Below, piece after piece: positions 2,326 through 20,900 of a DNA stretch of 64,000 nucleotides (within the stretch, counting starts at the first letter, position 1; the number at the start of each line of letters is the position of its first letter). The translations under genes were made by a program, and so were the position numbers. The DNA is taken from NCBI GenBank assembly GCA_025057615.1, contig JANXBF010000002.1, positions 17,937-81,936 of the forward strand. Reading direction: 5' to 3'. The DNA is from Candidatus Calescibacterium sp. Its GTDB lineage: Bacteria > DRYD01. The notes under the pieces were generated by a model. That model made no database searches. It had not been told where the DNA came from and was given only the letters and a program-made list of their open reading frames with translations.

Positions 2326-2414
2326 GGAGGGATGGCTGAGCGGTCTAAGGCGGCGGTCTCGAAAACCGTTGTGGGATTTTATTCCCACCGGGGGTTCGAA
2401 TCCCCCTCCCTCCT
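2326..2414 (+). tRNA. tRNA-Ser (anticodon CGA)
   Basis: The acceptor stem GGAGGGA pairs with TCCCTCC. The anticodon stem-loop is CGGT-CTCGAAA-ACCG, giving CGA. A class II long variable arm (GTGGGA/TCCCAC) is present and the T-arm is GGGGG-TTCGAAT-CCCCC. CCA is not encoded, and base 73 would be T, whereas serine tRNAs usually have G73. It lies between the exonuclease stop (14 nt upstream) and an ORF starting 9 nt downstream. Confidence 0.96.
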
Positions 2415-2423
2415 TAGATTCTG

Positions 2424-3683
2424 ATGGATATAATTGAGATAAAGAAAATAATTTCTGAGTGGAATCAATCTATATCTAAACCCGATAATTATAAAATGAT
2501 AAAAACCATTCGTGAAATAATAGGTGTTTATTCTAAATTGGATGAAAAACAAAAAGAATTATTTATTTTTAATTTTAAGCCTATTCAGAAAAAAATATTT
2601 GATAATATATATTCTAATGATCCTTTGTTGAGAAGGTCTGTTGTTAATCTTGCCATTTCTCTTAATACTAATGAATTGATAGCAGACGTTATAAAATATC
2701 TGAAAGTTGAGAAGGATTACGAGAATATAATGGTTTATTTGAAATATATAGATAAATTTAAGGTTGTGGGTTTTATAGAAAACTTGTTTGGCTTCGCTAA
2801 ACAGGTTGACCTTCCATTGATTATCAGGTTTAAGACTTTTTCTATTATATTTTCATTAGCAATAAATTATAAAAATAATTCTCTTATTTTAGACCATTTT
2901 TTTTCAATGTTAAATGAGTTAGTGAGAAACCAAAATTTTAATTACTCTGTTTTATCGTTATTTTTAAAAAACTTGATTAATGATCTTTTAGTTTATTATA
3001 GAGGGGATGATGTTCCAAAAGTTGTTTCTATTTTTTCTGACTTCTATAACAGTCTTTTCTTCAAAATATTTGATTTTATCAGGTATTTTTTGGTTAGAGT
3101 TGATAATGAGGAAAAATCGGAAATTTTGGTTTTGGCCTTTATTTTAATTTTTCTAATATCTGTAACATTAGATAAGATAGGATACTTTTCTGATGAAAAG
3201 AATATTTCTGGTGTTAAGGGGTTATTGTACAAGGATTTAGATTTGGTTTCCTTTTTAAAACAGATAGTCCTTGAGCTAAAAAACAAAACTTACTTTTTTT
3301 TATTTTTTAGTAATTTCTTGAAGGATTACGGTCTTTTGAATGAGTTGAAGAAAATTTTGGATACAGATCAAAGTTTTACTGAAATTCTTGTTAGTTTACT
3401 TTCTAATGATAATGAAAAGTTGAATTATCAAATTTTGAGTTTAATTTCTGAATTTGATTTGACAATTGGACATAATGGATTGAAAAAAATAGCCGATTTT
3501 GCTAAAAATAGTTTTAATGAAAATATTGTTTATACTTGTCTGGAAATATTTGATAAAAATGGATATTATGAAGATATTTTTTATTTTGCGAAATATTCAA
3601 GTTCTTACGGTGAAAGGATTAAAATTAAGATTAAGGAATTGTTAAAAAAAATGACGAAAGGAAAAACTGAGGATGAAGGATAG
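2424..3683 (+). CDS. Predicted all-helical repeat protein of unknown function
   Basis: 419 aa, not recognised. The sequence is almost entirely amphipathic helix with spacing reminiscent of HEAT/ARM repeats (NDPLLRRSVVNLAISLNTNELIADVIKYL, then KDYENIMVYLKYIDKFKVVGFIENLFG) and no signal peptide. It begins 9 nt after the 3' end of tRNA-Ser with no SD, and its last 11 bases overlap the start of pth, so it is probably translated with pth. A scaffold or interaction role is the most that can be inferred. The minus ORF 3044-3286 is a shadow. Confidence 0.8.
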   Translation: MDIIEIKKIISEWNQSISKPDNYKMIKTIREIIGVYSKLDEKQKELFIFNFKPIQKKIFDNIYSNDPLLRRSVVNLAISLNTNELIADVIKYLKVEKDYENIMVYLKYIDKFKVVGFIENLFGFAKQVDLPLIIRFKTFSIIFSLAINYKNNSLILDHFFSMLNELVRNQNFNYSVLSLFLKNLINDLLVYYRGDDVPKVVSIFSDFYNSLFFKIFDFIRYFLVRVDNEEKSEILVLAFILIFLISVTLDKIGYFSDEKNISGVKGLLYKDLDLVSFLKQIVLELKNKTYFFLFFSNFLKDYGLLNELKKILDTDQSFTEILVSLLSNDNEKLNYQILSLISEFDLTIGHNGLKKIADFAKNSFNENIVYTCLEIFDKNGYYEDIFYFAKYSSSYGERIKIKIKELLKKMTKGKTEDEG

Positions 3684-4272
3684 GTTAACAATTTTTGTTG
3701 GTCTGGGAAACCCTGGAAAACAATACAAAAATACACGTCATAATGTTGGTTTTATTGTCTTGGAGAATTTTTTAGAGAATTTGCGTGATCTTTCGGAAAT
3801 AAGGAAAGATTATAAATTTAATAGTATTATAAATGAGTTTATTTTATTTGACTCTAAAGTTGTTTGTGTTTTTCCCTTAACTTATATGAATTTAGCTGGT
3901 ATAGCAGTAAAACAGATAATCAATTATTATAAAGTTAATGATTTAAGGAATAGCCTTGTAGTTATCAATGATGATATGGATGTTGATTTGGGTTATTTTA
4001 AGTTGCGGATTAATGGAGGTGATGGTGGACATAATGGGGTTAGATCTATTATTGATCATATAGGTAAGGATTTTTGTCGTATAAAGGTTGGAATATCTAG
4101 ACCCGCTGATAAAAATTATAAAGAGTATGTGCTTCAAAATTTCTCTGATGAAGAAATTATTAGGATCAAAGAAATATTACCTACTTTGTCTTTGGTATTA
4201 AAAAATATTATAAAAGAGGGTTTTGTTTTAACGATGTCTAAAGTAGGAACATTCTTGATAAAAAAAAATTGA
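3673..4272 (+). CDS. pth: Peptidyl-tRNA hydrolase
   Basis: 199 aa, normal length. It cleaves the ester bond of peptidyl-tRNAs released by stalled ribosomes. Family motifs are intact: FVGLGNPGKQY at 8-18, TRHNVGF with catalytic His23, LTYMNLAG with Asn73, VVINDDMDV with Asp100/101, and GGDGGHNGVRSI with Asn121. The start overlaps the upstream helical-repeat gene by 11 bases. It is followed 19 nt later by a class-III aminotransferase preceded by GAAAGGGG. Confidence 0.97.
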   Translation: MKDRLTIFVGLGNPGKQYKNTRHNVGFIVLENFLENLRDLSEIRKDYKFNSIINEFILFDSKVVCVFPLTYMNLAGIAVKQIINYYKVNDLRNSLVVINDDMDVDLGYFKLRINGGDGGHNGVRSIIDHIGKDFCRIKVGISRPADKNYKEYVLQNFSDEEIIRIKEILPTLSLVLKNIIKEGFVLTMSKVGTFLIKKN

Positions 4273-4291
4273 TTGAAAGGGGTTTTTATCT

Positions 4292-5647
4292 ATGGATAAG
4301 CAAAAATTTTATGAAATAGCTACGAAGAGGCTAATACCTCATTTTGCATTGTGGAAAGAAATAGAAAAATATGGACCAAGAATAATTTCTCGTGCTAAAG
4401 GAGTGTATCTTTGGGATATTGATGGGAACAAATATGTTGATGCAATGTCTATTCTTTGGGTTGTTAACGTTGGACATGGAAGAAGAGAAATTATAGATGC
4501 TATGAGGGAGCAAATGGAGAAGATAAATTATGTTTCTCTTTTTGGGGGTTATCATCATGAAAAAGCTCTTGAGTTGGCTGACTTGATTTGTTCAATCTTG
4601 CCCGTTGAATCAGTGTTTTTTTCTAATAGTGGTAGTGAAGCCATAGAAACTGCTATAAAGTTAGCAAGGCAGTATCATCACATTGTTGGTAACTCTCAGA
4701 AATACAAGATTGTTGGAAGATGGCATTCTTATCATGGGGTTACTTATGGTGCATTGAGTGTTTCTGGTATAAGACAGAATAGGAATTTTTTTGAGCCTTT
4801 GGTTCCAGGTTTTATTCATTTTGAGGTGCCTTATTGCTACAGATGTCCTTTTAATCAACGTTTTCCTGAGTGCGGGTTAAGGTGTGCAGATGATTTTGAG
4901 AGATTGGTTGAGAATGAAGGACCTAAGACCATTGCTGCTGTCATTGTTGAGCCTATTATGTCAGCTTTGGGTTCTGTTTATCCTCCTGATATTAAAAGAT
5001 ATTATTCTAAAATAAGGGAAATTTGTGATAAATATGATATTCTCTTAATATTTGATGAGGTTAATAATGGTTTTGGTAGAACGGGTAGATTTTTTGCTTA
5101 TGAACATACTGGAGTTATTCCTGATATGTTTGTATTTGGAAAAGGAATAACAAGTGGTTATGCTCCGTTAGGTGCTACTGCTGTTAGTAAAAAAATAAGT
5201 GATGTTTTTAAGGATTGGATGTTTGTTCATGGGTTTACTTTTGGGGGACATCCGGTATCCTCAGCTGCTTCTATAGAAAATATAAAAATAATACAGAATG
5301 AGAGGTTATATGATAATGCGCGTGTTATGGGTGAGTATCTCCATCAAAGGTTACAGGAGTTGTATGAGTTTGATATTGTTGGTGATGTAAGGGGTATAGG
5401 TTTACATTGGTCTATTGAATATGTGGATGATAAGAAGACAAAGAAAAGTATTCCTTCTAAATTCTGGGTTGCTTCCAAAATTGAGAAAGAGCTTTTGAAG
5501 AATGGAGTATATTTAGCTCGTGCTTCTGTGGATAGAACCTATATTGCGCCTCCTTTGATTATTAACAAAGAAGAAATAGACTATATAGTAGAGGCTTTAA
5601 AGAAATCTATTTATGCTGTTCAAAAGGAATACAAATCGGCTGTATAG
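4292..5647 (+). CDS. Class-III PLP aminotransferase (omega-amino acid type)
   Basis: 451 aa, full length for the fold-type I class-III family (GABA, beta-alanine, taurine or DAPA aminotransferases). Visible: SNSGSEAIETAIKLARQ (PLP phosphate cup, about 112-128), the WHSYHG segment, IFDEVNNGFGRTG (PLP-binding Asp) and VFGKGITSGYAPLGA with the Schiff-base Lys at about 290. An insert with four cysteines, YCYRCPFNQRFPECGLRC (about 187-204), is also found in the second aminotransferase of this window. The exact amino donor cannot be read from sequence. It lies between pth and tRNA-Thr, the tRNA starting 36 nt after the stop. Confidence 0.9.
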   Translation: MDKQKFYEIATKRLIPHFALWKEIEKYGPRIISRAKGVYLWDIDGNKYVDAMSILWVVNVGHGRREIIDAMREQMEKINYVSLFGGYHHEKALELADLICSILPVESVFFSNSGSEAIETAIKLARQYHHIVGNSQKYKIVGRWHSYHGVTYGALSVSGIRQNRNFFEPLVPGFIHFEVPYCYRCPFNQRFPECGLRCADDFERLVENEGPKTIAAVIVEPIMSALGSVYPPDIKRYYSKIREICDKYDILLIFDEVNNGFGRTGRFFAYEHTGVIPDMFVFGKGITSGYAPLGATAVSKKISDVFKDWMFVHGFTFGGHPVSSAASIENIKIIQNERLYDNARVMGEYLHQRLQELYEFDIVGDVRGIGLHWSIEYVDDKKTKKSIPSKFWVASKIEKELLKNGVYLARASVDRTYIAPPLIINKEEIDYIVEALKKSIYAVQKEYKSAV

Positions 5648-5683
5648 AGGGTTTAGGAATTTTTTATTGAATATTATTTTTGT

Positions 5684-5755
5684 GCCGGTGTAGCTCAGTG
5701 GCAGAGCAGGTGATTTGTAATCACCAGGTCAGGGGTTCAAATCCCCTCACCGGCT
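5684..5755 (+). tRNA. tRNA-Thr (anticodon TGT)
   Basis: Acceptor GCCGGTG pairs with CACCGGC. The D-arm is GCTCAGTGGCAGAGC. The anticodon arm GGTGA-TTTGTAA-TCACC gives TGT. The T-arm is AGGGG-TTCAAAT-CCCCT. Base 73 is T and CCA is not encoded. The pilT start codon follows after a 12-nt leader, and TATTAT about 8 nt before the tRNA could be a -10 box. Confidence 0.97.
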
Positions 5756-5767
5756 TAAATTCCAACT

Positions 5768-6895
5768 ATGTCTAAAAGTGAGGTCATTTTCAATGAGCTC
5801 TTAAGAGCAATGGTTGCCAATAGAGCTTCTGACCTCTATATTAAACCTTTACATAGTCCTATTTTTAGAATAGAAGGGGAGCTTTATCCTGTTAAGATAG
5901 ATGATATATTACCGAATTTTACAGAGGATATATTGGACCTTGTTGCCACTCCAAGTCAAAAGAAATCATTTGAGACCTCTCCTGAGCTCAATTTGATGTA
6001 TTCTGTACCTGACGTAAGGGACAGGTATAGGATTAATTTCTATAAAAATAAAGGATATATTTCTTTGGTTGTTAGGAGGATAAATTCTGTTATCCCGACT
6101 ATTGAAGAATTAAATTTACCTTCTATATTGAAAAAGTTTGTTCTTTATAAAAGGGGATTGGTTATAGTTTCTGGTGCTACCGGAACAGGTAAGTCAACAA
6201 CTTTGGCTTCCATGCTTGATTTTGTTAATCAGAATTATAGAAAACATATAGTTACAATAGAAGATCCAATTGAATTTATAATAGAGGATAAGAAATCCTA
6301 TATTTCACAAAGAGAAGTTGGGATAGATACCAATAGTTTTTCTGATGCTTTGAAAAGTGTTGTTAGACAGACACCTGATATAATAATGGTTGGAGAGACA
6401 AGAGACAAAATAACTGCATCAAGTATCCTTCAGTTATCTGAGACCGGGCATTTGATATTGACAACTCTGCACTCTCCAAATACCGTACAGGCTATAATTA
6501 GGATATTACAGTTTTTTGAACAATCTGAACATAGAGAAATTGTCAATTACTTAGCTTCCAATCTTATAGCTGTTGTTAGTCAGAGACTTATCCCTCGAAT
6601 TGATAAGAAGGGAAGAGTTCCAGTTGCTGAAGTTTTGATAATAAATGCAAGAATGCAGGAATTGTTGATGGATATGGAGTTTAAACGAATGAAATCAGAA
6701 ATAGATAGTTTTTTGACTGATGGTATGCAGTCTTTTGATATTTCATTAATAAGACTCTATGCTAAGGGATTAATTAGCTTAGAGACTGCTCTGGAATATG
6801 CTGAAGTTCCACATGATTTACAGTTAAAAATAAGAACTTGGGGTGTAAAACCAGGTGGAGAGTTGCCTGAAAATCTCGAAGCACTATCTGAATAA
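5768..6895 (+). CDS. pilT: PilT-type retraction ATPase
   Basis: 375 aa. A hexameric ATPase at the cytoplasmic base of type IV pili that powers retraction (twitching, DNA uptake). Visible: an N-terminal PAS-like domain with LLRAMVANRASDLYIKP, Walker A GATGTGKST (about 136-144), Asp box IEDPIEFI, Walker B region RQTPDIIMVGETRD, His box TGHLILTTLHSPNT and an arginine-rich C-terminal part. It begins 12 nt after tRNA-Thr with no SD. No pilB, pilC or prepilin peptidase gene is in the window, but pilus-related remnants occur at 38-40 kb. Confidence 0.94.
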   Translation: MSKSEVIFNELLRAMVANRASDLYIKPLHSPIFRIEGELYPVKIDDILPNFTEDILDLVATPSQKKSFETSPELNLMYSVPDVRDRYRINFYKNKGYISLVVRRINSVIPTIEELNLPSILKKFVLYKRGLVIVSGATGTGKSTTLASMLDFVNQNYRKHIVTIEDPIEFIIEDKKSYISQREVGIDTNSFSDALKSVVRQTPDIIMVGETRDKITASSILQLSETGHLILTTLHSPNTVQAIIRILQFFEQSEHREIVNYLASNLIAVVSQRLIPRIDKKGRVPVAEVLIINARMQELLMDMEFKRMKSEIDSFLTDGMQSFDISLIRLYAKGLISLETALEYAEVPHDLQLKIRTWGVKPGGELPENLEALSE

Positions 6896-6945
6896 AGGAA
6901 AAAGATGATATTTGGTGTATTAAAAAATAGGAGGTAGAAGTTTGT

Positions 6946-7140
6946 ATGTCAAGAGTATGTTATCTTTCAGGTAAGAAAACTGTTACCGGTTTTGCTGTTA
7001 GTCATTCAAACAGACATACGAAAAGAAAATGGAAAGTAAATTTGAGAAAAGTTAGGGTTGGAGATAAGGTTATTAAAGTTTCAGCCAAATACTTGAGAAA
7101 GTTTGGTGTTATTCTTAAATCTGGAAATATGAATATCTAA
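6946..7140 (+). CDS. rpmB: 50S ribosomal protein L28
   Basis: 64 aa, usual for L28. The N-terminus SRVCYLSGKKTVTGFAVSHSNRHTKRKW matches the family pattern (Cys, GK, VSHSNxxTKR), followed by the basic beta-rich core ending in KYLRKFGVI. AGGAGG nine bases upstream of the ATG supports the start. It precedes rplU by 24 nt and is probably co-transcribed with it. Confidence 0.96.
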   Translation: MSRVCYLSGKKTVTGFAVSHSNRHTKRKWKVNLRKVRVGDKVIKVSAKYLRKFGVILKSGNMNI

Positions 7141-7164
7141 AATTTTAAAAGAGAGGGAGATAAT

Positions 7165-7479
7165 ATGTTGGCAATTGTTGAAATAAAAGGACATCAATAT
7201 ACTGTTAAGGATGGTCAAGTAATAACAACAGAAAAAATAGATGAAGAGCCTGGTAAAGAAATAGAAATAAAAAATGTTCTTTTACATTATGATGGTAAAG
7301 AACTGAAATTGGGAAAACCATATTTAGACCCCAGTAGTTTGAATATTAATTTAAGAGGTAAAATTTTGAGACATTTTAAAGGACCTAAAATAATTGATTT
7401 TAAATATACACCTAAAAAGAGATATAGAAAAAAAAGAGGACATAGACAAGAATTAACGGAACTACAAATATTGTTTTGA
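7165..7479 (+). CDS. rplU: 50S ribosomal protein L21
   Basis: 104 aa, standard length. L21 signatures: LAIVEIKGHQYTVKDGQVITTEKI at the N-terminus, VLLHYDGKELKLGKPYL in the middle and KRYRKKRGHRQELTELQI at the C-terminus, which binds 23S rRNA. GAGGGAG precedes the ATG. In most bacteria rplU is followed by rpmA (L27); here L28 precedes it and a 140-bp non-coding gap and tRNA-His follow. Confidence 0.96.
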   Translation: MLAIVEIKGHQYTVKDGQVITTEKIDEEPGKEIEIKNVLLHYDGKELKLGKPYLDPSSLNINLRGKILRHFKGPKIIDFKYTPKKRYRKKRGHRQELTELQILF

Positions 7480-7619
7480 TTTTTTGTAATATTAGTTCTC
7501 TTTTGTAGTGATTATATTCTTTCCATGCAGATCGCCATGTTAATTTGGTTTGTCTCTAATTCATATATAAAGGGATAAATATCTGTTGTGTAGTATTATA
7601 TTGAGTAGGGTAGAATTAT

Positions 7620-7693
7620 GGTGGGTGTAGCTCAGCGGTTAGAGCAGTGGACTGTGGATCCACGGGTCGGGGGTTCAAGTCCCCTCACCCACC
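7620..7693 (+). tRNA. tRNA-His (anticodon GTG)
   Basis: The acceptor is GTGGGTG/CACCCAC with an extra G-1 at 7620 opposite C73 at 7693, the identity element for histidine. The anticodon arm GTGGA-CTGTGGA-TCCAC gives GTG. The next bases are CCA (7694-7696), so the 3' CCA may be encoded, unlike the other three tRNAs here. An aminotransferase ATG follows after 11 nt. The 140 bases upstream (7480-7619) hold no gene; TAGAAT at 7611 is too close to be a confident -10. Confidence 0.97.
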
Positions 7694-7704
7694 CCAAGTA
7701 AAAA

Positions 7705-9033
7705 ATGTCAATAAAAGTTACTCAAATACCGGGACCAAAGGTTGAAGAAATAGCAAGAGAAGAAAGAGAATTATTAGCCACATCAACTAAATGTTGGGAT
7801 ACTCCAGCAGGTCCTGTTGAGGCCAAGGGAATATACTTTAGAGATAAAGATGGTAATGTTTTGATGGATTGGACAAATGGAATGGTTGTTATCTTGGGTC
7901 ATAATCATCCTAGATGGAATGAATCTGTAATAGACCAGATAAATAAATTTGTTTATTTCAATGGTCCAGATTTTGTTTATGATGTTCAGAAAGAGGCTGC
8001 AAAGATTCTTACCCAGATAACTCCAGGTAACTGGAAAAAGAAAGTTTTCTTTTGTAACTCAGGTACTGAAGCTAATGAAGCCGCTATGAAACTTGCCAGA
8101 ATATCTCAGAAAAAGAACTTAATTATAGGTTTTCTTGGAGCATTTCATGGCAGAACTCAAGGTTCCCTATCTGTTACAGCTAGTAAGAGTGTTCAGAGAA
8201 AAGGTTATACTTCTTACTTAAATAACTCTTTTTCTGTTCCTTATCCTTATTGTTATAGATGTTGGTATAATATGACCTATCCTTCGTGTGATCTTTATTG
8301 TATTAGAGTAATAGAGAGATATTTTCAGCATAATTTACCTCCTGATGATGTTGCTGCTTTTATATTTGAGCCTGTTCAAGGAGAAGGTGGATACATTGTT
8401 CCTCCACAGGAATCGTTTAAATTGTTGAAATCGATATTGGATAAGTATGGAATTTTAATGATAGCGGATGAAGTTCAGACAGGTTTTGGAAAAAGTGGTT
8501 ACATGTTTGCTTCTTCATACTTTGGAGTAGAACCAGATATAATCACTATCGCCAAAGCCATATCGAACGGTCTTCCCATGGGTGCAACAGTTTTCAGGGC
8601 TTCATTGGATTTTAAAGAGCAGGGGATGCACTCCAACACTTTTGGTGGAAATCCCTTATCCTGTAGATCTCTTATAGAAGTCTATAATATCATACAAGAA
8701 GAAAGTTTGTTAAAAAGAGTTGTGGATATGGGAAATTACTTCAAACAGAAGTTGTATGAACTTATGGAAAACAGCAGAACCATAGGTGATGTTAGAGTTT
8801 TGGGTATGTTAATTGGTATAGAGTTTGTTAAGGATAGAAGTACCAAGGAACCTGCTAAGGAAATAAGAGATTTTGTGGTAAAAAGAGCATATGAAAAAGG
8901 GCTGTTACTTTTATCTTGTGGGCAATCTGTAATTAGAATAACTGCTTCTTATATTATTACTCAACAGGAAATAGATGAGGGTATTAGAATAATTAAAGAG
9001 GCGGTTGAGGAGGCTGAAAAGCTATTTTTATAA
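7705..9033 (+). CDS. Class-III PLP aminotransferase (4-aminobutyrate aminotransferase-like)
   Basis: 442 aa, full length. Motifs resemble GABA aminotransferases: FCNSGTEANEAAMKLAR (PLP cup), GFLGAFHGRTQGSLS, FIFEPVQGEGGYIVPP, IADEVQTGFGKSGYMFA with the PLP Asp, and ITIAKAISNGLPMGA with the Schiff-base Lys at about 275. It carries the same type of Cys insert as the first aminotransferase (YCYRCWYNMTYPSCDLYC). The N-terminus IPGPKVEEIAREE is typical, so the ATG 11 nt after tRNA-His is the right start although no SD is present. It probably transfers the amino group of a 4- or 5-carbon omega-amino acid to 2-oxoglutarate or pyruvate. Confidence 0.92.
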   Translation: MSIKVTQIPGPKVEEIAREERELLATSTKCWDTPAGPVEAKGIYFRDKDGNVLMDWTNGMVVILGHNHPRWNESVIDQINKFVYFNGPDFVYDVQKEAAKILTQITPGNWKKKVFFCNSGTEANEAAMKLARISQKKNLIIGFLGAFHGRTQGSLSVTASKSVQRKGYTSYLNNSFSVPYPYCYRCWYNMTYPSCDLYCIRVIERYFQHNLPPDDVAAFIFEPVQGEGGYIVPPQESFKLLKSILDKYGILMIADEVQTGFGKSGYMFASSYFGVEPDIITIAKAISNGLPMGATVFRASLDFKEQGMHSNTFGGNPLSCRSLIEVYNIIQEESLLKRVVDMGNYFKQKLYELMENSRTIGDVRVLGMLIGIEFVKDRSTKEPAKEIRDFVVKRAYEKGLLLLSCGQSVIRITASYIITQQEIDEGIRIIKEAVEEAEKLFL

Positions 9034-9035
9034 AA

Positions 9036-9515
9036 TTGAGGCGCTTATTAATTTTATTCGTTTTATTATTTTCACTGACTATTTCTGTGGGTCAGGAGTT
9101 ACTAAAGATTAAAAATATGACTTTATTTTATCCTTCATATTATATAAAAGTTGAGTTGTATAATCAGTATCAGACGGTTGTTCTTCTTGATTCAAGAAAT
9201 CAAAACAGGAGCTTATATGTTGAACTGTTGAGAACTGATATTAAGGATTATATAAAGCAAAACCTTTTGGATCTATATAGCCTTTATGAAGGGAAATATA
9301 AGGTGATTACAAATGAAGTTAGGAATTATAAGGGAAGAAATTTGTATGTTTTGGAGTACACTTTTGTTCAGCTTAATGAAGAGTATAAGACTGTAAAATA
9401 CTTTTGGGAGTTTGAGAGTGGTTCTTATTTGGGTTTGTATTGTTTATCTCCTTTTGCTGAGTTTTCTCAAATTTATAGTGATTTTGTAAATCTTTTTCAA
9501 TCAATTAAGGAGTGA
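9036..9515 (+). CDS. Exported protein of unknown function
   Basis: 159 aa. The N-terminus RRLLILFVLLFSLTISVGQE is a signal peptide with a likely cut after about residue 19, followed by a beta-rich domain (NMTLFYPSYYIKVELYNQYQTVVLL, then YKTVKYFWEFESGSYLGLYC). It resembles small PsbP/DcrB-like periplasmic domains in overall pattern only. The start is a TTG two bases after the aminotransferase stop, with GGAGGC inside that gene. gcvPB follows after 7 nt. The hydrophobic signal supports it being a real gene. Confidence 0.75.
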   Translation: MRRLLILFVLLFSLTISVGQELLKIKNMTLFYPSYYIKVELYNQYQTVVLLDSRNQNRSLYVELLRTDIKDYIKQNLLDLYSLYEGKYKVITNEVRNYKGRNLYVLEYTFVQLNEEYKTVKYFWEFESGSYLGLYCLSPFAEFSQIYSDFVNLFQSIKE

Positions 9516-9522
9516 GTATATT

Positions 9523-12374: not shown

Positions 12375-12401
12375 ATTGAGGTAATTTTTTATATATTATC
12401 T

Positions 12402-12422
12402 TTTTTACATTTTTTTTACAAA
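12402..12422 (+). promoter_or_regulatory. TTTTTACA-T8-ACAAA element upstream of the C11 peptidase gene
   Basis: A 21-base AT-rich string in the 117-bp gap between lnt and the clostripain-family gene. The identical 21-mer occurs at 58571-58591 upstream of the charged-protein gene, and related TTTTTACA repeats occur before pgk and before the 208-aa protein gene. It may be a promoter-associated or regulatory element. TTTACA could act as a -35 box, but I could not place a good -10. Confidence 0.3.
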
Positions 12423-12491
12423 TGAACCTCTTTATTTGTGTAAAAGTGATCAAAAAGAACGTTAAAATAATCATTAAGGAGGTAAATAATC

Positions 12492-14060: not shown

Positions 14061-14078
14061 GATTAAACAAGGTTTAAA
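14045..14078 (+). repeat. 17-bp tandem duplication across the C11 gene stop
   Basis: ATTAAACAAGGTTTAAG is followed directly by ATTAAACAAGGTTTAAA. The first copy encodes the last residues and stop (LNKV*); the second lies after the stop. It looks like a recent slippage duplication. Confidence 0.85.
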
Positions 14079-14098
14079 TTGGGTTTTCATAGTCATTA

Positions 14099-14131
14099 CC
14101 AAAGGGAGGTTGTAAATTACCTCCCTTTTGG
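14099..14131 (+). terminator. Hairpin terminator after the C11 peptidase gene
   Basis: CCAAAGGGAGGT and ACCTCCCTTTTGG form a 12-bp stem with one bulged T around an 8-nt loop. It is the strongest hairpin seen between genes here. There is no clean downstream T-run, so termination may be partial; the asd start lies 42 nt further on. Confidence 0.6.
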
Positions 14132-14172
14132 ATTATGTAAAAAATAATTTAATTATAAAGGAGGTAGTTTTA

Positions 14173-15129
14173 ATGAGAGTTTCTATTGTTGGTATTAATG
14201 GTTTGGTTGGTAAAGAATTAGAAAAATTGATAAAAGATAATACTAATTGGGATATTGAGGGTTTTGGTTCGTCTGATAAAATAGATTACGAAAAAATGAG
14301 AAAAAAGGATATTGTATTTTTATGTGTTGACAATGATGTTAGTGCTTCTATAGCTCCACATATATATGATTACACTACTGTTATAGATAATAGTTCTTAT
14401 TACAGGATGGATAGTGATGTGCCTCTTGTGGTTCCAGAAGTGAACATGGTTTATGATTGGGATAGTAGGAAATCAAAGAGAATAATTGCTAATCCTAATT
14501 GTTCAACCATTCAGCTTGTTATACCTTTGAAGCCAATTTTTGATAGTTACGGTATTGAGGAGGTTTTCGTTGCGACGTATCAATCAGTTTCCGGAGCGGG
14601 TAAGAAAGCTCTTGATGAGTTTAAGGATCAAATAAAGAGTAATCACTTTGAGAATAAATATTTGCCATATCCAATTGCATATAATTTGTTTCCTGTTATT
14701 GGAAATTTTTTTGAGGATAATATAGAAAACATTGTCTGTACTGAAGAAAAAAAGATTATGGAGGAAACGAATAAAATATTAAACTCTGATATAAATGTTC
14801 ATCCTTTTACGGTAAGGGTTCCTGTTATAAGAGCTCATAGTCAGGCTGTTTTTGTAAGAACTAAGAGGGATTTTGAATATGAGCAACTTATTGGTTTACT
14901 TGATGAATTTGCAAGGTCGGGTGGTTTGAAAGTCTGGGTGGATAACAGTGTTTTACCACAACCATATACTGTTTCAAATACAAATGAAGTTCATATTTCA
15001 AGAATAAGGAAGCTTGGTAGTAAATTAATCGGTTTTTGGAGTGTTTCTGATAATTTACTTCGTGGTGCTGCTTATAACGCTTTCCTGATTGCAAAGAAAA
15101 TATTACAGAACAAAGTTGCTACTAAATGA
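14173..15129 (+). CDS. asd: Aspartate-semialdehyde dehydrogenase
   Basis: 318 aa from the chosen start. It reduces beta-aspartyl phosphate to aspartate semialdehyde for Lys, Met, Thr and diaminopimelate synthesis. Motifs: MRVSIVGINGLVGKE (NADP fold), IANPNCSTIQLVIPLKP with catalytic Cys at about 110, YQSVSGAGKKALDEF, and VRVPVIRAHSQAVFVR with the substrate Arg and base His. The ORF extends to 14128, but AAAGGAGG lies seven to nine bases before the ATG at 14173 and the family N-terminus begins there. It is slightly shorter than the usual 330-370 aa. Confidence 0.95.
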   Translation: MRVSIVGINGLVGKELEKLIKDNTNWDIEGFGSSDKIDYEKMRKKDIVFLCVDNDVSASIAPHIYDYTTVIDNSSYYRMDSDVPLVVPEVNMVYDWDSRKSKRIIANPNCSTIQLVIPLKPIFDSYGIEEVFVATYQSVSGAGKKALDEFKDQIKSNHFENKYLPYPIAYNLFPVIGNFFEDNIENIVCTEEKKIMEETNKILNSDINVHPFTVRVPVIRAHSQAVFVRTKRDFEYEQLIGLLDEFARSGGLKVWVDNSVLPQPYTVSNTNEVHISRIRKLGSKLIGFWSVSDNLLRGAAYNAFLIAKKILQNKVATK

Positions 15130-15227
15130 AATGCTTTTAATAAAATTTTTTAATGAAATTTTTAAGTTAGGTTTTTACTTATAAAAGAAAGGATAGTTAT
15201 CTTTTTTGTTGAAAAAACTTTTATAGA

Positions 15228-16388
15228 ATGAAGAACATTTGTATATTGGGTTCTACTGGTTCGATAGGTTTCCAATCTATGGATGTAATATCCAAGTATC
15301 CGGAAATTTTGAGGGTTTATTCTATTGCTGCTTATGGAAGAAACCCGAATAGTATAATTGCTCAGATAAAGAGGTATAACCCGAAATATGTTGCTGTTTT
15401 TGATGAGCAAACTGCAAAGAAAATATCCAGTGAGGTTAATGTTAAAATTTTTACTGGTATGGATGGTTTAATGAAATTGGTTGAAGATGATAATGTGGAT
15501 TTAGTTATCAGTGCTATGGTTGGATTTGTTGGATTAAAACCAACACTTTATGCTTTAGAAAAAGGTAAATATGTTGCCTTGGCTAACAAAGAATCTGTTG
15601 TTGTTGGTGGACCTTTAATACAGAAGTATATAGATAAAATCATTCCTGTTGATAGTGAACATAGTGCAATATTTCAGCTTATAGAAAATAAGAATAAAAG
15701 CGATATAAAAGAGATTGTAATTACTGCTTCTGGTGGACCGTTTTGGAAAAAAAAGGAGAGTCAACTTAAAAATGTTAGAATTGAGGATGCTCTTAAGCAT
15801 CCTGTTTGGAAAATGGGAAACAAAATAACTATTGATAGTGCAACTTTGATGAATAAGGCTCTTGAGATAATAGAGGCATACTTTTTATTTTCTCTTCCTT
15901 ATGATAAAATAAAGGCTGTAATTCATCCACAGAGTTATATTCATTCACTCGTAATTTTTAATGATAATAATGTTTTTGCTCATATTGCAAAGCCTGATAT
16001 GAGGATACCTATTACTTATGCTCTATTCTATCCCCATAGAGTTGAGAACCAGTTCTCAGAATTCAGCTTTGCTGATTTATATAATAAGAGGTTGGAGTTT
16101 TATGAAATACCTTCTCATTTCAGGTCTATAAAATTTGCTTATTCTGTTTTATCAAATGGAGGTGTTTTTCCAACTATTATGAACGCTTCAAATGAAGTCG
16201 CAGTGGATTTATTTATTCAAAGAAAAATAGGGTTTACTGATATTTTTAATATAGTTGAAGATACTTTATGTTGTTATGGTGGTCCTAATTATGATGATTT
16301 GAATTTGGAAATACTTGAGCAGGTTGACTCGTGGGCCAGAAGGACAGCTGTTGATTTGGCTAAGAAATCAAAAATATTTATAAACTGA
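15228..16388 (+). CDS. dxr: 1-deoxy-D-xylulose 5-phosphate reductoisomerase
   Basis: 386 aa, full length. It converts DXP to MEP with NADPH, the first committed step of the non-mevalonate isoprenoid pathway. Visible: ICILGSTGSIGFQSMDVI (5-22), ALANKESVVVGG, PVDSEHSAIFQLIE with metal ligands, ITASGGPFWKK, and HPVWKMGNKITIDSATLMNK. No strong SD before the ATG. Its stop overlaps the next gene by one base, opening a run dxr-NERD-smpB-DUF47-pit. The 98 bases upstream (15130-15227) are AT-rich with no gene. Confidence 0.96.
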   Translation: MKNICILGSTGSIGFQSMDVISKYPEILRVYSIAAYGRNPNSIIAQIKRYNPKYVAVFDEQTAKKISSEVNVKIFTGMDGLMKLVEDDNVDLVISAMVGFVGLKPTLYALEKGKYVALANKESVVVGGPLIQKYIDKIIPVDSEHSAIFQLIENKNKSDIKEIVITASGGPFWKKKESQLKNVRIEDALKHPVWKMGNKITIDSATLMNKALEIIEAYFLFSLPYDKIKAVIHPQSYIHSLVIFNDNNVFAHIAKPDMRIPITYALFYPHRVENQFSEFSFADLYNKRLEFYEIPSHFRSIKFAYSVLSNGGVFPTIMNASNEVAVDLFIQRKIGFTDIFNIVEDTLCCYGGPNYDDLNLEILEQVDSWARRTAVDLAKKSKIFIN

Positions 16389-17053
16389 TGGCAAAGATAA
16401 TTTCCCCGGCTGCTATTAGTACTAGAAAATTAGAAATTCAACGTAAGAACAAGTTAATAATAATTTATATCACTGCTTTTGTTTTGTTAATTATTATCAT
16501 TTTTTTTATTGTAAAATCTAATGTTTGGGCAGTCATTTTTGTTGCTTTTGTGTTGTCTTTTTTTTTATATAACATAATAATTTTTTCTAAGAAGATTAAT
16601 GATGCCAAGATAGGTGCTAAAGCAGAAAAATATTTATCAGATTTTTTGGATACTCATCTTTCTCCAGCTTATTGGGTTGTTAATGATGTGAAAATTAAAT
16701 ATGGTAATATAGATTGTTTAGTTATTGATACAATCAAGAATTGTATTTTTCTATTAGAGATAAAGTCTTCAAAGAGGTTTGATTCTTCTAAGGTTTCTAA
16801 GTGGATAAAGCAGTGTAAATTGAGTGAAAAATTATTAAAAAGTATTGTTTTCAGAGTTTTGGGGCAAGAAGTTCCTATTTTTACTATTGTCTCTTTACCT
16901 TTTTTGGATAATCAGGATTATTCTTATCATTTTGAAAATTCTAATGTTTGGATGTTTGGAAACAGAAAGTTATTGGAATTTATAGACAGTGTTCCTAAAA
17001 ATAACAGCAAGGTAGATTGGTATAAATTTATAGATGATATTTGCAGTAAATAA
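16388..17053 (+). CDS. Membrane-anchored NERD-domain protein
   Basis: 221 aa. Two hydrophobic segments at about 25-65 are followed by a nuclease-related domain: AKIGAKAEKYLSDFLDTHL, then YGNIDCLVIDTIKNCIFLLEIKSSKRF, which carries the Asp and E-x-K residues of the restriction-endonuclease-like core. NERD proteins are thought to process DNA or RNA, but their function is mostly unknown. It overlaps dxr by one base and smpB by 20 bases. The ATG is the first in frame. Confidence 0.82.
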   Translation: MAKIISPAAISTRKLEIQRKNKLIIIYITAFVLLIIIIFFIVKSNVWAVIFVAFVLSFFLYNIIIFSKKINDAKIGAKAEKYLSDFLDTHLSPAYWVVNDVKIKYGNIDCLVIDTIKNCIFLLEIKSSKRFDSSKVSKWIKQCKLSEKLLKSIVFRVLGQEVPIFTIVSLPFLDNQDYSYHFENSNVWMFGNRKLLEFIDSVPKNNSKVDWYKFIDDICSK

Positions 17054-17483
17054 GAAGCTCAGAGATTTACAAATATTAGAAACTTTTGAGGCTGGAGTTT
17101 CTCTTATTGGTCCTGAAGTAAAAGCTATTAGAAATAAGAATTTATCAATAAGTGAAGCTTTTATTAAAATAAAGAATGGAGAAGTATTCATAATAAATAT
17201 GAATATTATACCTATTTCTCAAAATTCCTTTTTTGGAAGGTTTAATCCTGTTAGATCTAGAAAATTATTATTAAAGAAGAGTGAAATAAAAAGGTTAATT
17301 GGTAAAGTGGAGGAAAAAGGGTTAACCATAGTTCCTACAAAGGTTTATCAAAAAGGGAAGTGGATAAAAGTGGAGATTGCTATTGCTAAACATAAAACTC
17401 AATACGATAAGCGCCAAGAAATAAGGAAGAAGGAAGTCGATAGAAAAATTCAAGAAATAATGAAAAGGAGGGGATTAAGATAG
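17034..17483 (+). CDS. smpB: SsrA-binding protein SmpB
   Basis: 149 aa, typical. It binds tmRNA and delivers it to stalled ribosomes. Signatures: NKKLRDLQILETFEAGVSLIGPEVKAIR (3-30), NFFGRFNP-like RFNPVRSRKLLLKKSEI, IVPTKVYQKGKWIKVEIAIAKHKTQYDKRQEIRKKE and a basic C-terminal tail. The usual GTEVKS reads GPEVKA. It starts inside the end of the NERD gene. The ssrA gene is not in this window. Confidence 0.96.
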   Translation: MIFAVNKKLRDLQILETFEAGVSLIGPEVKAIRNKNLSISEAFIKIKNGEVFIINMNIIPISQNSFFGRFNPVRSRKLLLKKSEIKRLIGKVEEKGLTIVPTKVYQKGKWIKVEIAIAKHKTQYDKRQEIRKKEVDRKIQEIMKRRGLR

Positions 17484-18106
17484 TGTCTAAAGGTTTACTT
17501 TCTATTTTCCCTAAACATGTCGATTTTTTTAGATACCTCTGTGAATGTTCTGAAATACTTATTGAAGTATGTAAAGAATTAAAGGTTTTATATGATGACC
17601 CTAAGGAGGAAATTTTTAACAAGATAATTGAACTTGAGCATAGAGCAGATAAGTTGGTTTATGAATACAGACATAAGCTAAATGAGGTATTTATAACACC
17701 TCTTGATCGTGAAGATCTTCATCAGTTGATTATAGAACTTGATGATATAATAGATTTTGCTAAATCTTCTGCAGAGAAGTATTTTCTTTATAAACCAAAA
17801 GGTAAATATGATTTTATAGACCAGATACTGGAGGTTTTAATGAAGTCTGCTCAAAAAGTTAAGGATTTGATGAAAATTCTGAAAAATCAGAATAACGAGA
17901 TAATAAAAATAGTGAATGAAATATGTGACTTGGAAAAGCAAGCTGATGTTATAAATAGGAGAGGTATTGCTAACCTCTTTAATAATGGACAAGATATTCT
18001 TGAAATAATCAAAGTGAAAGAAATCCTGTCTCAATTGGAAGAAACTATTGATAGAACGCAAATGCTTGCTATAACTATTGAAAATAGTATTTTTAAACAT
18101 ATATAG
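17483..18106 (+). CDS. DUF47 / PhoU-like partner of the Pit transporter
   Basis: 207 aa, wholly helical. The family is found directly upstream of pit genes and is proposed to regulate phosphate uptake. Visible: KEEIFNKIIELEHRADKLVYEYRHKL, FITPLDREDLHQLIIELDDIIDFA and EICDLEKQADVINRRG, which carry the acidic E-x-x-D metal-binding repeats. The GTG start overlaps the smpB stop (TAGTG) with GGAGGGG ahead. Pit follows two bases after the stop. Confidence 0.93.
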   Translation: MSKGLLSIFPKHVDFFRYLCECSEILIEVCKELKVLYDDPKEEIFNKIIELEHRADKLVYEYRHKLNEVFITPLDREDLHQLIIELDDIIDFAKSSAEKYFLYKPKGKYDFIDQILEVLMKSAQKVKDLMKILKNQNNEIIKIVNEICDLEKQADVINRRGIANLFNNGQDILEIIKVKEILSQLEETIDRTQMLAITIENSIFKHI

Positions 18107-18108
18107 TT

Positions 18109-19104
18109 ATGGAATCTGTTACAATTCTATTAATAATAGTTATACTGTTAGCTTGGATTTTCGATTATACTAATGGTTTAAATGATTCCGCAAATGCTAT
18201 TGCTACTGTTGTTTCAACTAGAGTTCTAAAACCTTTTGCTGCTGTTGCTCTGGCAGCAATATTCAACTTTCTTGGTGCTTTTATTACTGTTGAAGTTGCT
18301 ACGACCATTGGTAAAGGCATAGTTGATCCTAAGTCAATAGATATATATACCATACTTTCTGCTTTGATTGGTGCTACTTTTTGGAATATTTTTGCAACTT
18401 ATCTGGGGTTACCTATAAGTGCCAGTTATTCACTAATTGGTGGTATAGTGGGTGCTTCTATTTCTCATGCTTCATTAAGTGTGGTAAATATGAGTGGCTT
18501 GATCTCTAAGTTTATGGTTCCTTCGATATTGTCTCCTTTTTTGGGTATGTTGGCTGCCATTTTGTTTTTTTCTATTTCTTATTTTGTAGCTTCTTGGTTG
18601 AAAGCGACTACAGTAAACAGGGTTTTTAGTGTGCTTCAACTTATTTCAGCTTCGTATATGGCTTTCAGTCATGGTTCAAATGATGCTCAAAAAACAATGG
18701 GAGTGATTGCTATGGCTCTGGTGACTGGTGGTATGTTGTCTAATTTTGAGGTTCCTTTTTGGGTAAAATTCAGTGCTGCCTTTTTTATTTCTTTGGGAAC
18801 TCTTATGGGTGGATGGAAGGTTATAAAGACTCTGGGTATGAAATTGACAAAATTGAGACCAATAGATGGATTTTCTGCTGAGACTGCCGCTGCCACTACC
18901 ATAATAACAGCTTCATTTCTGGGTATGCCCATAAGTACTACATACGTTATAACATCCTCTGTTATGGGAGTTGGAATGTCCAAGAAAATCAATGCAGTAA
19001 AATGGAGCCTTTTTTCTACAATAATACTGGCTTGGTTATTTACTATTCCAGGTTCTGCTATTGTAGCCTTTGTTTCATACAAATTGATCAAGCTGTTATT
19101 TTAA
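18109..19104 (+). CDS. pit: Inorganic phosphate transporter (Pit family)
   Basis: 331 aa, about ten membrane segments. Low-affinity phosphate symporter of the inner membrane. The two inverted-repeat signatures are present: DYTNGLNDSANAIATVVSTRVL (about 20-40) and MAFSHGSNDAQKTMGVIAMAL (about 184-204), together with TTTVI-type loops near GMPISTTYVITSSVMGVGM. It is co-transcribed with its DUF47 partner. The long minus-strand ORF at 18687-19091 is a shadow caused by codon bias. Confidence 0.95.
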   Translation: MESVTILLIIVILLAWIFDYTNGLNDSANAIATVVSTRVLKPFAAVALAAIFNFLGAFITVEVATTIGKGIVDPKSIDIYTILSALIGATFWNIFATYLGLPISASYSLIGGIVGASISHASLSVVNMSGLISKFMVPSILSPFLGMLAAILFFSISYFVASWLKATTVNRVFSVLQLISASYMAFSHGSNDAQKTMGVIAMALVTGGMLSNFEVPFWVKFSAAFFISLGTLMGGWKVIKTLGMKLTKLRPIDGFSAETAAATTIITASFLGMPISTTYVITSSVMGVGMSKKINAVKWSLFSTIILAWLFTIPGSAIVAFVSYKLIKLLF

Positions 19105-19126
19105 TAAATCTTTTACAATTTTTTTG

Positions 19127-19132
19127 TATAAT
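19127..19132 (+). promoter_or_regulatory. Possible -10 box before the 208-aa protein gene
   Basis: TATAAT within TTTTTTTGTATAATTC lies about 54 bases before the ATG. No matching -35 at 17 bp is seen; TTTTACA occurs too close. It is a candidate only. Confidence 0.3.
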
Positions 19133-19185
19133 TCATAGGGAATTTCACTATTAAATGCATAAATTTAGATTGGGAGGTTTTGTAT

Positions 19186-19812
19186 ATGTTTCGAGATGTG
19201 AATATTGGAAAGTATATACCCTTTTTAAACAGAGAGGTTGAAAACATATCGTCGAGTAATTCTTCAATCCAAAATAATGACAAAAAAATAGATGTTGATG
19301 CTATTCTTAGAGATCTTTATAAAGGTAAGGTTGAAATGACCAGGGATGGGGTTAAAGTTTCTGGTTTTTTTGGAGAGGAAGAGGTGAAAATTTTTGGTGA
19401 TGATCTTGAGAAGATGCCTGACCAATCCTTATTCGAAGGTATAATAAAAGGATTATTAGTTGGATTACTTGGTATAAGTTATCCACTTTTCCTTGCTATT
19501 GCTAAATCAATTCGAGGATATTTTGATGGAGCTGGAGCTGCAATAGGTGTTGGATTGAGTTTAAAAGATAGTATAAAAGCTGGTGGAATTCTTGCTCTTC
19601 ATGGTGCAGCAAAAGCATTACCTCATGGTATTATAGATTTGATTGGTATTATGGCATTCAATGCTGCTTGGCATGCTCTATTTGGAGGACCTGTGTCAAT
19701 TGGGATTACTGCTCTAGTTGGGGGTTTTTACAACCTTTTCAAGGATGATTTTAGACATATTTATAAGAGAATCCAGGAGAGAAAGGAAAATTTAGATAGT
19801 ACCGGAGAGTAG
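19186..19812 (+). CDS. Gly/Ala-rich membrane-interacting protein, unknown
   Basis: 208 aa from the ATG at 19186, chosen because GGGAGG sits eight bases upstream; the track start at 19180 is a TTG too close to it. The N-terminal 80 residues are polar, then come hydrophobic Gly-rich segments (IIKGLLVGLLGISYPLFLAIAKSI, IIDLIGIMAFNAAWHALFGGPVSIGITALVGGFYNLF) and a basic tail. The pattern recalls proteins that insert into membranes without a signal peptide. I do not recognise a family. The following 400 bases appear to hold a decayed relative. Confidence 0.72.
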   Translation: MFRDVNIGKYIPFLNREVENISSSNSSIQNNDKKIDVDAILRDLYKGKVEMTRDGVKVSGFFGEEEVKIFGDDLEKMPDQSLFEGIIKGLLVGLLGISYPLFLAIAKSIRGYFDGAGAAIGVGLSLKDSIKAGGILALHGAAKALPHGIIDLIGIMAFNAAWHALFGGPVSIGITALVGGFYNLFKDDFRHIYKRIQERKENLDSTGE

Positions 19813-19929
19813 TGTAAATGATAAATAAATTGGGATAAGGATTGTGTGCTCCGAAGTTACCCATAATTTTTCTCAGATTCAGTGGGCAAAGAAAAGATAA
19901 TTATGTTCTAAAAAAATATTATCCTATTA

Positions 19930-20233
19930 GTGAGTACGCTGTTTAAATCTATTGATGGGTATAGAAAAATTTATGACTCTGGTAGGAAAGTAGGTTTGGA
20001 AGGGTGTAACATTATAAGATCAGATTTAAGGGGAATTTGGGTAGTGGATAGATTTACTCATCATTTTTGTATTTTATATTACTGCACTAACAGGTATGGG
20101 TATGGTTATAGTAGTCCTTTTGGGTAATGCTATCATAACGGTTTTTGGTGAAAGATTTTGTAACCTGCTGAAAGATGCTTTGAGGAATGATTGGTTAATT
20201 TTGGATTATTTATGTGAAGGTTTTTTGGGGTAA
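19930..20233 (+). pseudogene. Likely decayed paralogue of the preceding gene
   Basis: One frame reads LFKSIDGYRKIYDSGRKVGLEG, comparable to AKSIRGYFDGAGAAIGVGLS in the intact protein. About 130 bases later another frame reads ITVFGERFCNLLKDALRNDW, comparable to ITALVGGFYNLFKDDFRHIY. Order and spacing agree, but frames differ and no start or SD is evident. The track ORF 19930-20127 (65 aa) covers only the first piece. The identity is low, so this is inference; the alternative is chance similarity in a non-coding spacer. Bases 19813-19929 show nothing else. Confidence 0.4.
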
Positions 20234-20261
20234 GTTGTAGAATTTAAGAAAAGAAAGGGTA

Positions 20262-20336
20262 CGGGGTGTAGCTCAGCCTGGCTAGAGCGCGTGCCTTGGG
20301 AGCACGAGGTCCGCGGTTCAAGTCCGCGCACCCCGA
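20262..20336 (+). tRNA. tRNA-Pro (anticodon TGG)
   Basis: Acceptor CGGGGTG pairs with CACCCCG and A73 follows. The anticodon arm CGTGC-CTTGGGA-GCACG gives TGG. The T-arm is CGCGG-TTCAAGT-CCGCG. CCA is not encoded. An ORF starts 9 nt downstream. Confidence 0.97.
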
Positions 20337-20345
20337 TAATAATAA

Positions 20346-20900
20346 ATGAAAATCAAAACCACTTTTGTTTCTTCCTCGTTTGAAAATAATGTTTATCCCA
20401 AAGGTATAGCTTGTGTTCAATGTACCGTTCAAACCAAAGATTCAGAAGTATCCTTTATGTTTATTAGAAAGGCCGATGAAAATACCGTGGAATCGTTTGT
20501 TGAAAATGATAATATTTGTCAAAAATTTGCTATTCAAAAGACGTTGAAAATCATTAAGTACATAGAAAACTATGGTTTTGATGAATTATCCGAAATTCCT
20601 CAATATACTGAAGTCAATTATCGTAATGATATAGGTTATCGTAAAGAAGAAAAAAAGAATATTTCTTATAAACAAAAAGTTATTGAACTTGTAAATTTGT
20701 TAGATTGGAGTATTGAAAAGTTATCCAAATTTGTTCAAAAGTATAGCAAGAAAAAGTTGAGTGAGCTGACAGAAAATGAATGGGCAAGAATTTATGATTA
20801 TCTTTCTAAAATGAATACGACGTATAATGTAAATAATGAAAAAATTGATGATGTAGAATCTGAAATTATAAAACCTGAAGAATGGGAAGAAATAATATAG
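20346..20900 (+). CDS. Hypothetical protein downstream of tRNA-Pro
   Basis: 184 aa, not recognised. The N-terminal half is mixed alpha/beta (MKIKTTFVSSSFENNVYPKGIACVQCTVQ) and the C-terminal half is helical and acidic (LVNLLDWSIEKLSKFVQKYSKKKLSELTENEWARIYDYLSKM), ending in PEEWEEII. There is no signal peptide. It starts 9 nt after the tRNA with no SD and its stop is immediately followed by the ABC ATPase ATG, so it heads a co-directional run up to 28.4 kb. Confidence 0.78.
   Translation: MKIKTTFVSSSFENNVYPKGIACVQCTVQTKDSEVSFMFIRKADENTVESFVENDNICQKFAIQKTLKIIKYIENYGFDELSEIPQYTEVNYRNDIGYRKEEKKNISYKQKVIELVNLLDWSIEKLSKFVQKYSKKKLSELTENEWARIYDYLSKMNTTYNVNNEKIDDVESEIIKPEEWEEII

Follow-up and report, generated by a model that had tools for sequence, protein, structure and literature searches.

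Short gaps without Shine-Dalgarno sites between tRNA genes and protein genes in a Candidatus Calescibacterium lineage suggest a tRNA-punctuation-like arrangement

In the 64,000-nt stretch of Candidatus Calescibacterium sp. DNA analysed here (the window), four tRNA genes are each followed at a very short distance by the ATG of a protein gene that lacks a Shine-Dalgarno (SD) site, which raises the question of whether maturation of the tRNA could form the 5' end of the mRNA behind it. The genome holding the window (G000; 1.40 Mb, 84% complete, GC content about 30%) was analysed in a family set of five genomes (G000–G004, 71–90% complete), including one of the same genus (G002) and one of the same family (G004), and was compared with tRNA samples of three more distant genomes, namely an order-level relative (G005), G006, and G007. 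The closest named relatives, JAUQQQ (Tibet) and CAKZQG/SRR5214706, are MAGs of an uncultured, hot-spring type. In all genomes, a gene was counted as near when a same-strand ATG ORF of ≥60 aa started 0–30 nt past the discriminator base, and the statistics are based on stretches of these genomes.

tRNA genes and the protein genes behind them

The features of the four loci are listed in Table 1. An earlier note on this DNA had described discriminator-to-ATG gaps of 9, 12, 11, and 9 nt, leaders devoid of SD-like sites, and SD sites before many other genes; the sequence confirmed all four gaps, the missing SD (0/4 leaders), and many strong SDs elsewhere. It had also taken these tRNAs to lack an encoded CCA, which holds for tRNA-Ser, tRNA-Thr, and tRNA-Pro but not for tRNA-His; CCA is encoded in 5 of the 37 tRNAs of G000. 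The tRNA-Ser(CGA) gene is probably located inside an operon, given that the upstream ORF ends only 14 nt before it. In G002, the counterpart of its leader (tactatccca) occupies the same place, and a Pfam search with the ortholog of the 419-aa ORF gave no match. The G002 ortholog of PilT matches TIGR01420 (365 bits, profile position 3 at residue 9), the tRNA-His/aminotransferase pair is also present there with a 10-nt SD-less gap (ccataataat) and 82% identity, and the leader after tRNA-Pro reads cactacaac.

Table 1. Coordinates of the tRNA genes, leaders, and adjoining genes in the window
Feature	Position	Strand	Remarks
ORF upstream of tRNA-Ser	1466..2311		
tRNA-Ser(CGA)	2326..2414	+	CCA not encoded; ARAGORN, Rfam RF00005 (55 bits)
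Leader/trailer after tRNA-Ser	2415..2423	+	TAGATTCTG; 9 nt, no SD
ORF, 419 aa	2424..3683	+	tRNA-Ser-CGA in front in each of the three genomes
tRNA-Thr(TGT)	5684..5755	+	CCA not encoded; ARAGORN, Rfam
Leader after tRNA-Thr	5756..5767	+	TAAATTCCAACT; 12 nt, no SD
PilT-family type IV pilus ATPase	5768..6895	+	tRNA-Thr-TGT in front in G000, G002, and G004
tRNA-His(GTG)	7621..7693	+	Discriminator C, then encoded CCA (7694-7696); ARAGORN, Rfam
Discriminator-to-ATG stretch after tRNA-His	7694..7704	+	CCAAGTAAAAA; 11 nt, 8 nt past the encoded CCA
Class-III aminotransferase	7705..9033	+	Pfam PF00202 (G002 ortholog)
TAGAAT, -10-like element	20238..20243	+	18 nt upstream of tRNA-Pro
tRNA-Pro(TGG)	20262..20336	+	CCA not encoded; ARAGORN, Rfam
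Leader after tRNA-Pro	20337..20345	+	TAATAATAA; 9 nt, no SD
ORF, 184 aa	20346..20900	+	After tRNA-Pro-TGG; gap 9 nt in G000 and G002, about 24 nt in G004

A tabulation of tRNA-to-start distances in this genome and its relatives, which the earlier note had proposed, showed that the arrangement recurs genome-wide, is conserved, and is specific to the lineage. An ATG ORF starts within 30 nt after the tRNA in 18/37, 27/42, and 16/42 cases in G000, G002, and G004, respectively, counts that are rather low because the custom gene finder overlooked some true starts (the pilin after tRNA-Pro-GGG and gatC after tRNA-Leu-TAA); with GTG and TTG starts included, the G000 count is 24/37. The corresponding numbers in G005, G006, and G007 are 3/19, 2/18, and 1/28 (6/65 in total; family versus distant genomes, p = 8e-9). 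The opposite, divergent flank of these tRNAs gave 1/119 (1/37 in G000), and shuffled downstream sequences yielded an expectation of 0.05–0.1 per genome (0.05 in G000). These controls bear out the view that four of four is unlikely to be chance, and the wording that every tRNA is so followed is accurate inside the window (4/4) but not genome-wide. The spacings in G000 are 4, 7, 8, 8, 8, 8, 9, 9, 10, 10, 11, 11, 11, 12, 12, 20, 24, and 30 nt, those in G002 look alike, and a few of these values are 1 nt too small, the pairing-based end-finder having sometimes set the discriminator one base late. Across the family, the spacing is mostly 7–13 nt. A quarter to half of the family tRNAs lack the arrangement.

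Between G000 and G002, 22 of the 24 near tRNA–ORF pairs are kept, and eight orthologous pairs are shared between G000 and G004 and likewise between G002 and G004. The leaders themselves are close to random (G000/G002 identity 0.50; mismatched pairs give 0.46). Most downstream genes have housekeeping functions, including dnaA, infA (IF-1), topA, gatC, hemL, hemE, tkt, and lspA; others encode a trypsin-like/PDZ protease, an RluA-family pseudouridine synthase, and YraN, among others. Ahead of dnaA stands tRNA-Arg-CCT in three genomes (G000, G002, and G003) but tRNA-Pro-CGG in G004, each time at a distance of about 9–11 nt; in G005 the gene has no tRNA ahead and carries a strong SD (AAGGAGAGGGG). 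This comparison suggests that, for dnaA, the presence of some tRNA ahead may outweigh its identity. A regained SD was also looked for at topA in G004, where its tRNA is missing, and no clear SD was found there either.

Shine-Dalgarno absence and the composition of the flank

The 3' end of 16S rRNA in two relatives (...GGATCACCTCCTTT) contains an intact anti-SD. An SD core is present in none of the 45 leaders of ≤14 nt, whereas equally long windows ahead of other ATGs predict 10.1. Among the tRNA-led genes of G000 and G002, the sole exception with a clear SD is a YbaB/EbfC-like ORF after tRNA-Ser-GCT, the leader of which is 20–21 nt long.

Ordinary compact operons, in which tRNAs stand at normal spacing and ribosomes start on uncut or internally degraded transcripts with no need for a cut, would explain short gaps as such: gaps of 4–14 nt between CDSs are common (15 of 120 same-strand pairs in G000), and some tRNAs are located 8–36 nt behind a same-strand gene. 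However, an SD precedes 74% of the G002 CDSs at 4–14 nt behind another CDS (35/47, window -18..-1) and 86% of those at 15–30 nt, whereas tRNA-led genes at 4–14 nt have none in the leader (0/22, p = 9e-10) and one within -18..-1 (1/22, p = 3e-8). The rarity of the arrangement in the three more distant genomes also speaks against compact operons, as does general ribosome geometry: the 30S subunit needs a single strand just ahead of the AUG, a zone that a folded tRNA 8–12 nt before the start codon would occupy. We consider this explanation unlikely.

The leaders are poor in G (14 G in 440 nt, versus 85 expected) and have an excess of C, and the 3' flanks of tRNAs without a near gene are just as G-poor. 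The SD absence is thus in part a tRNA-side constraint, because flanks are G-poor after all tRNAs, with a near gene or not, and the missing SD cannot be read as a plain signal of translation mode; it may result from tRNA maturation instead of any requirement for leaderless translation. The first 60 nt of tRNA-led ORFs in G002 contain C and G at 0.18 and 0.11, respectively, compared with 0.10–0.12 and 0.16–0.18 in all other gene classes, and this skew extends, fading, about 100 nt into the ORFs. The folding energy of leader plus ORF is significantly weaker in G002 only (p = 0.04). The G-poor flank may be due to tRNA processing, weak structure, S1, or a Rho-like C>G bubble.

These compositional data are consistent with selection on the G-poor, C-rich stretch itself, e.g. 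for tRNA folding or 3' processing, S1 binding, or a Rho-utilisation-like C>G bubble; loss of the SD would then be a by-product, and the gene would be translated independently of an SD, with or without excision of the tRNA. Such selection would leave unexplained, however, both the constant 7–13 nt distance of the start codons and the retention of a tRNA before dnaA despite the change in tRNA identity. As for the particular uses, tRNA folding was only slightly better with the natural than with a swapped downstream sequence (81 of 121 tRNAs, with a lower mean in G000), a weak and inconsistent result on which selection of the trailer for folding was set aside, and a motif search for Rho in stretches covering part of the genome did not find it. 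We regard this explanation as improbable.

Transcription and start codons

TAGAAT elements are enriched 4- to 6-fold upstream of tRNAs, with 11, 13, and 10 observed versus 1.8, 2.2, and 2.5 expected in G000, G002, and G004, respectively. The same enrichment was looked for before operon-first CDSs and was not found, and leaderless promoters as a general start mode were rejected on this basis. No intrinsic terminator-like site is present within 100 nt past 74 near tRNAs, compared with 3/16 at convergent gene ends, and the tRNA–ORF gap is too small to hold a terminator. Co-transcription of tRNA and gene is therefore strongly implied, and appears nearly unavoidable, because neither a terminator nor room for a promoter exists between them. 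Some bacteria have many leaderless transcripts that arise from -10 boxes just before start codons, and a promoter inside the tRNA gene could in principle give the downstream gene a primary leaderless transcript. Its -10 box would, however, fall in the GC-rich 3' strand of the acceptor and T arms (e.g. CCCCTCACCGGCT), a strand whose sequence is dictated by the tRNA structure, and the -10-like elements sit upstream of the tRNA instead; this option is very improbable and was rejected on sequence grounds.

The called start codons are real, as judged from conserved tRNA–ORF pairs, randomised leaders, and codon-periodic conservation that begins at the ATG. Of 24 same-tRNA pairs between G000 and G002, 17 align without gaps; in these, leader identity (0.30–0.46) matches that of third codon positions (0.46), and codon positions 1 and 2 reach 0.72 and 0.86 from codon 2 onward. 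The family profiles of HemL, PilT, TopA, transketolase (Tkt), LspA, and DUF503 start at or near residue 1. An AT-rich genome offers many ATGs, but this periodicity in orthologous N-termini and the profile starts, together with the shuffled and divergent-side controls, make chance or an ORF-calling artefact hardly credible, and it was rejected.

Processing enzymes and comparison with known systems

The enzyme named in the earlier note as the cutter was RNase Z, and this part of the proposal was not supported. The TIGR02651 model gave no credible match in any of the five family genomes, as opposed to matches in 14/14 control genomes; a PF12706 search likewise found no RNase Z, and the metallo-beta-lactamase candidates inspected are unlike it. 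At the given completeness, absence from all five genomes by chance seems unlikely, and sequence divergence may be an alternative reason for the null result. Canonical RNase Z, searched for with these two models and not found, was rejected as the cutting enzyme. Because a weak 287-aa match in G005 did not resemble RNase Z on inspection, we claim no correlation with loss of this enzyme. RNase E/G was found in 3/3 genomes tested (277–303 bits, under the curated cut-off), RNase P RNA in three genomes, and nucleotidyltransferases of the PolyA_pol/CCA type at two per genome.

Based on the genomic arrangement, we propose, with a probability of roughly 60%, that the family possesses a tRNA-punctuation-like unit in which excision of the tRNA would generate short-leader, SD-less mRNAs. 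The unit would consist, for most family tRNAs, of a promoter, the tRNA, a G-poor trailer of 7–13 nt, and an SD-less ORF, the tRNA forming the first segment of a transcription unit or standing inside one. RNA polymerase would pass through the tRNA into the ORF, since no terminator stands between them. RNase P would free the tRNA 5' end, and an endonuclease would cut in the short, unstructured trailer on the 3' side, with RNase E/G as the most likely candidate because canonical RNase Z was not found; exonucleases and the CCA-adding enzyme would then finish the tRNA. The remaining mRNA would begin about 0–13 nt ahead of the AUG and would be translated with no SD, initiating in a short-leader or leaderless mode that is aided by a G-poor, weakly structured start. 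Because co-transcription is almost inescapable and the downstream genes are genuine but lack an SD, excision would fix or constrain where the mRNA begins; on this point the genome-wide pattern supports the earlier proposal. Maturation of tRNAs would form mRNA 5' ends, and tRNA transcription would govern mRNA supply for dnaA, infA, topA, gatC, hemL, and tkt.

The closest parallel is the tRNA punctuation of animal mitochondria (Ojala, Montoya, and Attardi, 1981; as set out in PMC10941002). In both cases tRNAs abut protein genes, and excision would free short-leader, SD-less mRNAs. Unlike the mitochondrial case, the genes here are chromosomal genes of a bacterium whose anti-SD is intact and whose other genes include SD-led ones. 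Mitochondrial mRNAs start 0–3 nt ahead of the start codon, whereas the genomic gap here is 4–14 nt, mostly 7–13 nt; the mitochondrial model relies on RNase P plus RNase Z, of which only the former is represented here, by its RNA, and on few promoters and genome-length polycistrons, whereas here TAGAAT -10-like elements precede individual tRNAs. The lineage resembles mitochondrial tRNA punctuation but is not a member of it, since RNase Z and genome-length polycistrons were both looked for and neither was found.

In Escherichia coli, the tRNA–mRNA operons thrU-tyrU-glyT-thrT-tufB and metY-nusA-infB likewise place tRNA and protein gene on one transcript that is split by tRNA processing, but these are single instances in which the spacers are longer and the ORFs carry an SD, unlike the short SD-less spacers that follow half to two thirds of the tRNAs in this genus. 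The t-elements of plant mitochondria, tRNA-like structures that form mRNA termini, also set mRNA ends, but they are organellar, based on RNase Z/PRORP, and do not involve the majority of tRNAs in a bacterium. Leaderless bacterial mRNAs, with the start codon at or near the 5' end, no SD, and possible 70S-type initiation, resemble the tRNA-led genes in lacking an SD; the portion of the review available to us discusses MazF cleavage as a source of processed leaderless mRNAs, and a tRNA excision route does not appear in that portion (PMC9031893). Propionibacterium acnes, as described in the available part of PMC3848588, transcribes tRNAs individually and also has no obvious tRNase Z, its tRNA 3' cut being endonucleolytic, a few nucleotides after or inside CCA, but in that part the cut is not tied to downstream mRNA 5' ends. 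A literature search largely restricted to openly accessible journals found no genome-scale bacterial precedent for this layout, which is known from mitochondria.

A further step would be a dedicated bacterial tRNA-punctuation system that operates without canonical RNase Z, forms the 5' ends of dozens of SD-less mRNAs in one family of hot-spring bacteria, and ties DnaA, IF-1, TopA, GatC, HemL, and transketolase to tRNA transcription and maturation beside SD-led translation; we advance it tentatively, at somewhat under even odds. If this is true, tRNA maturation would create mRNA 5' ends on a genome scale in a free-living bacterium, something previously deemed an organellar trait, and the question would arise of which nuclease stands in for RNase Z. 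The lineage would also offer, within one cell, dozens of naturally SD-less genes next to SD-led ones, making the requirements of short-leader initiation directly testable, and the arrangement would suggest a direct tie of tRNA supply to the synthesis of DnaA or IF-1.

Upstream element and tRNA-headed infA

The hexamer TAGAAT found ahead of tRNAs seems to be a -10 element specific to tRNAs, and no enrichment of it was detected upstream of protein operons (operon-first CDSs). In this family IF-1, the product of the tRNA-headed infA, is extended at its N-terminus by some 15–25 residues rich in lysine and asparagine.

Positions of a TAGAAT example and of infA genes with the extension (L-numbers, genome stretches)
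Feature	Stretch	Positions	Strand	Remark
TAGAAT	window	20238-20243	+	upstream of tRNA
infA	L010	1588-1872		with extension
infA	L174	1244-1516		with extension
infA	L214	1673-1927		with extension

tRNA-Trp and rRNA regions

In the window's own genome (G000, stretch L015), an ATG lies 8 nt 3' of tRNA-Trp, but its reading frame soon meets a stop after ten consecutive T, possibly a frameshift or assembly error; the corresponding place in G002, of the same genus, holds a 700-aa ORF with a GTG start. The rRNA regions of G002 and G004, assigned to different genera, share 95% identity over 3 kb, and the 40 nt directly after 16S are identical (stretches L241 and L242).

Processing and composition at tRNA 3' ends

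Most tRNAs of the family lack an encoded CCA, yet canonical RNase Z (TIGR02651 profile) was not found in its five genomes G000–G004. PolyA_pol/CCA-type nucleotidyltransferases number two per genome (stretches L264–L267); the pair may divide CCA addition between a CC-adding and an A-adding enzyme, or may consist of one CCA enzyme and one poly(A) polymerase. In G000, G002, and G004 (same family), the 0–100 nt downstream of tRNAs are C-rich and G-poor. This stretch starts where the tRNA ends and reaches into the opening codons of the gene that follows, and its composition is the reverse of the G-rich skew at other gene starts.
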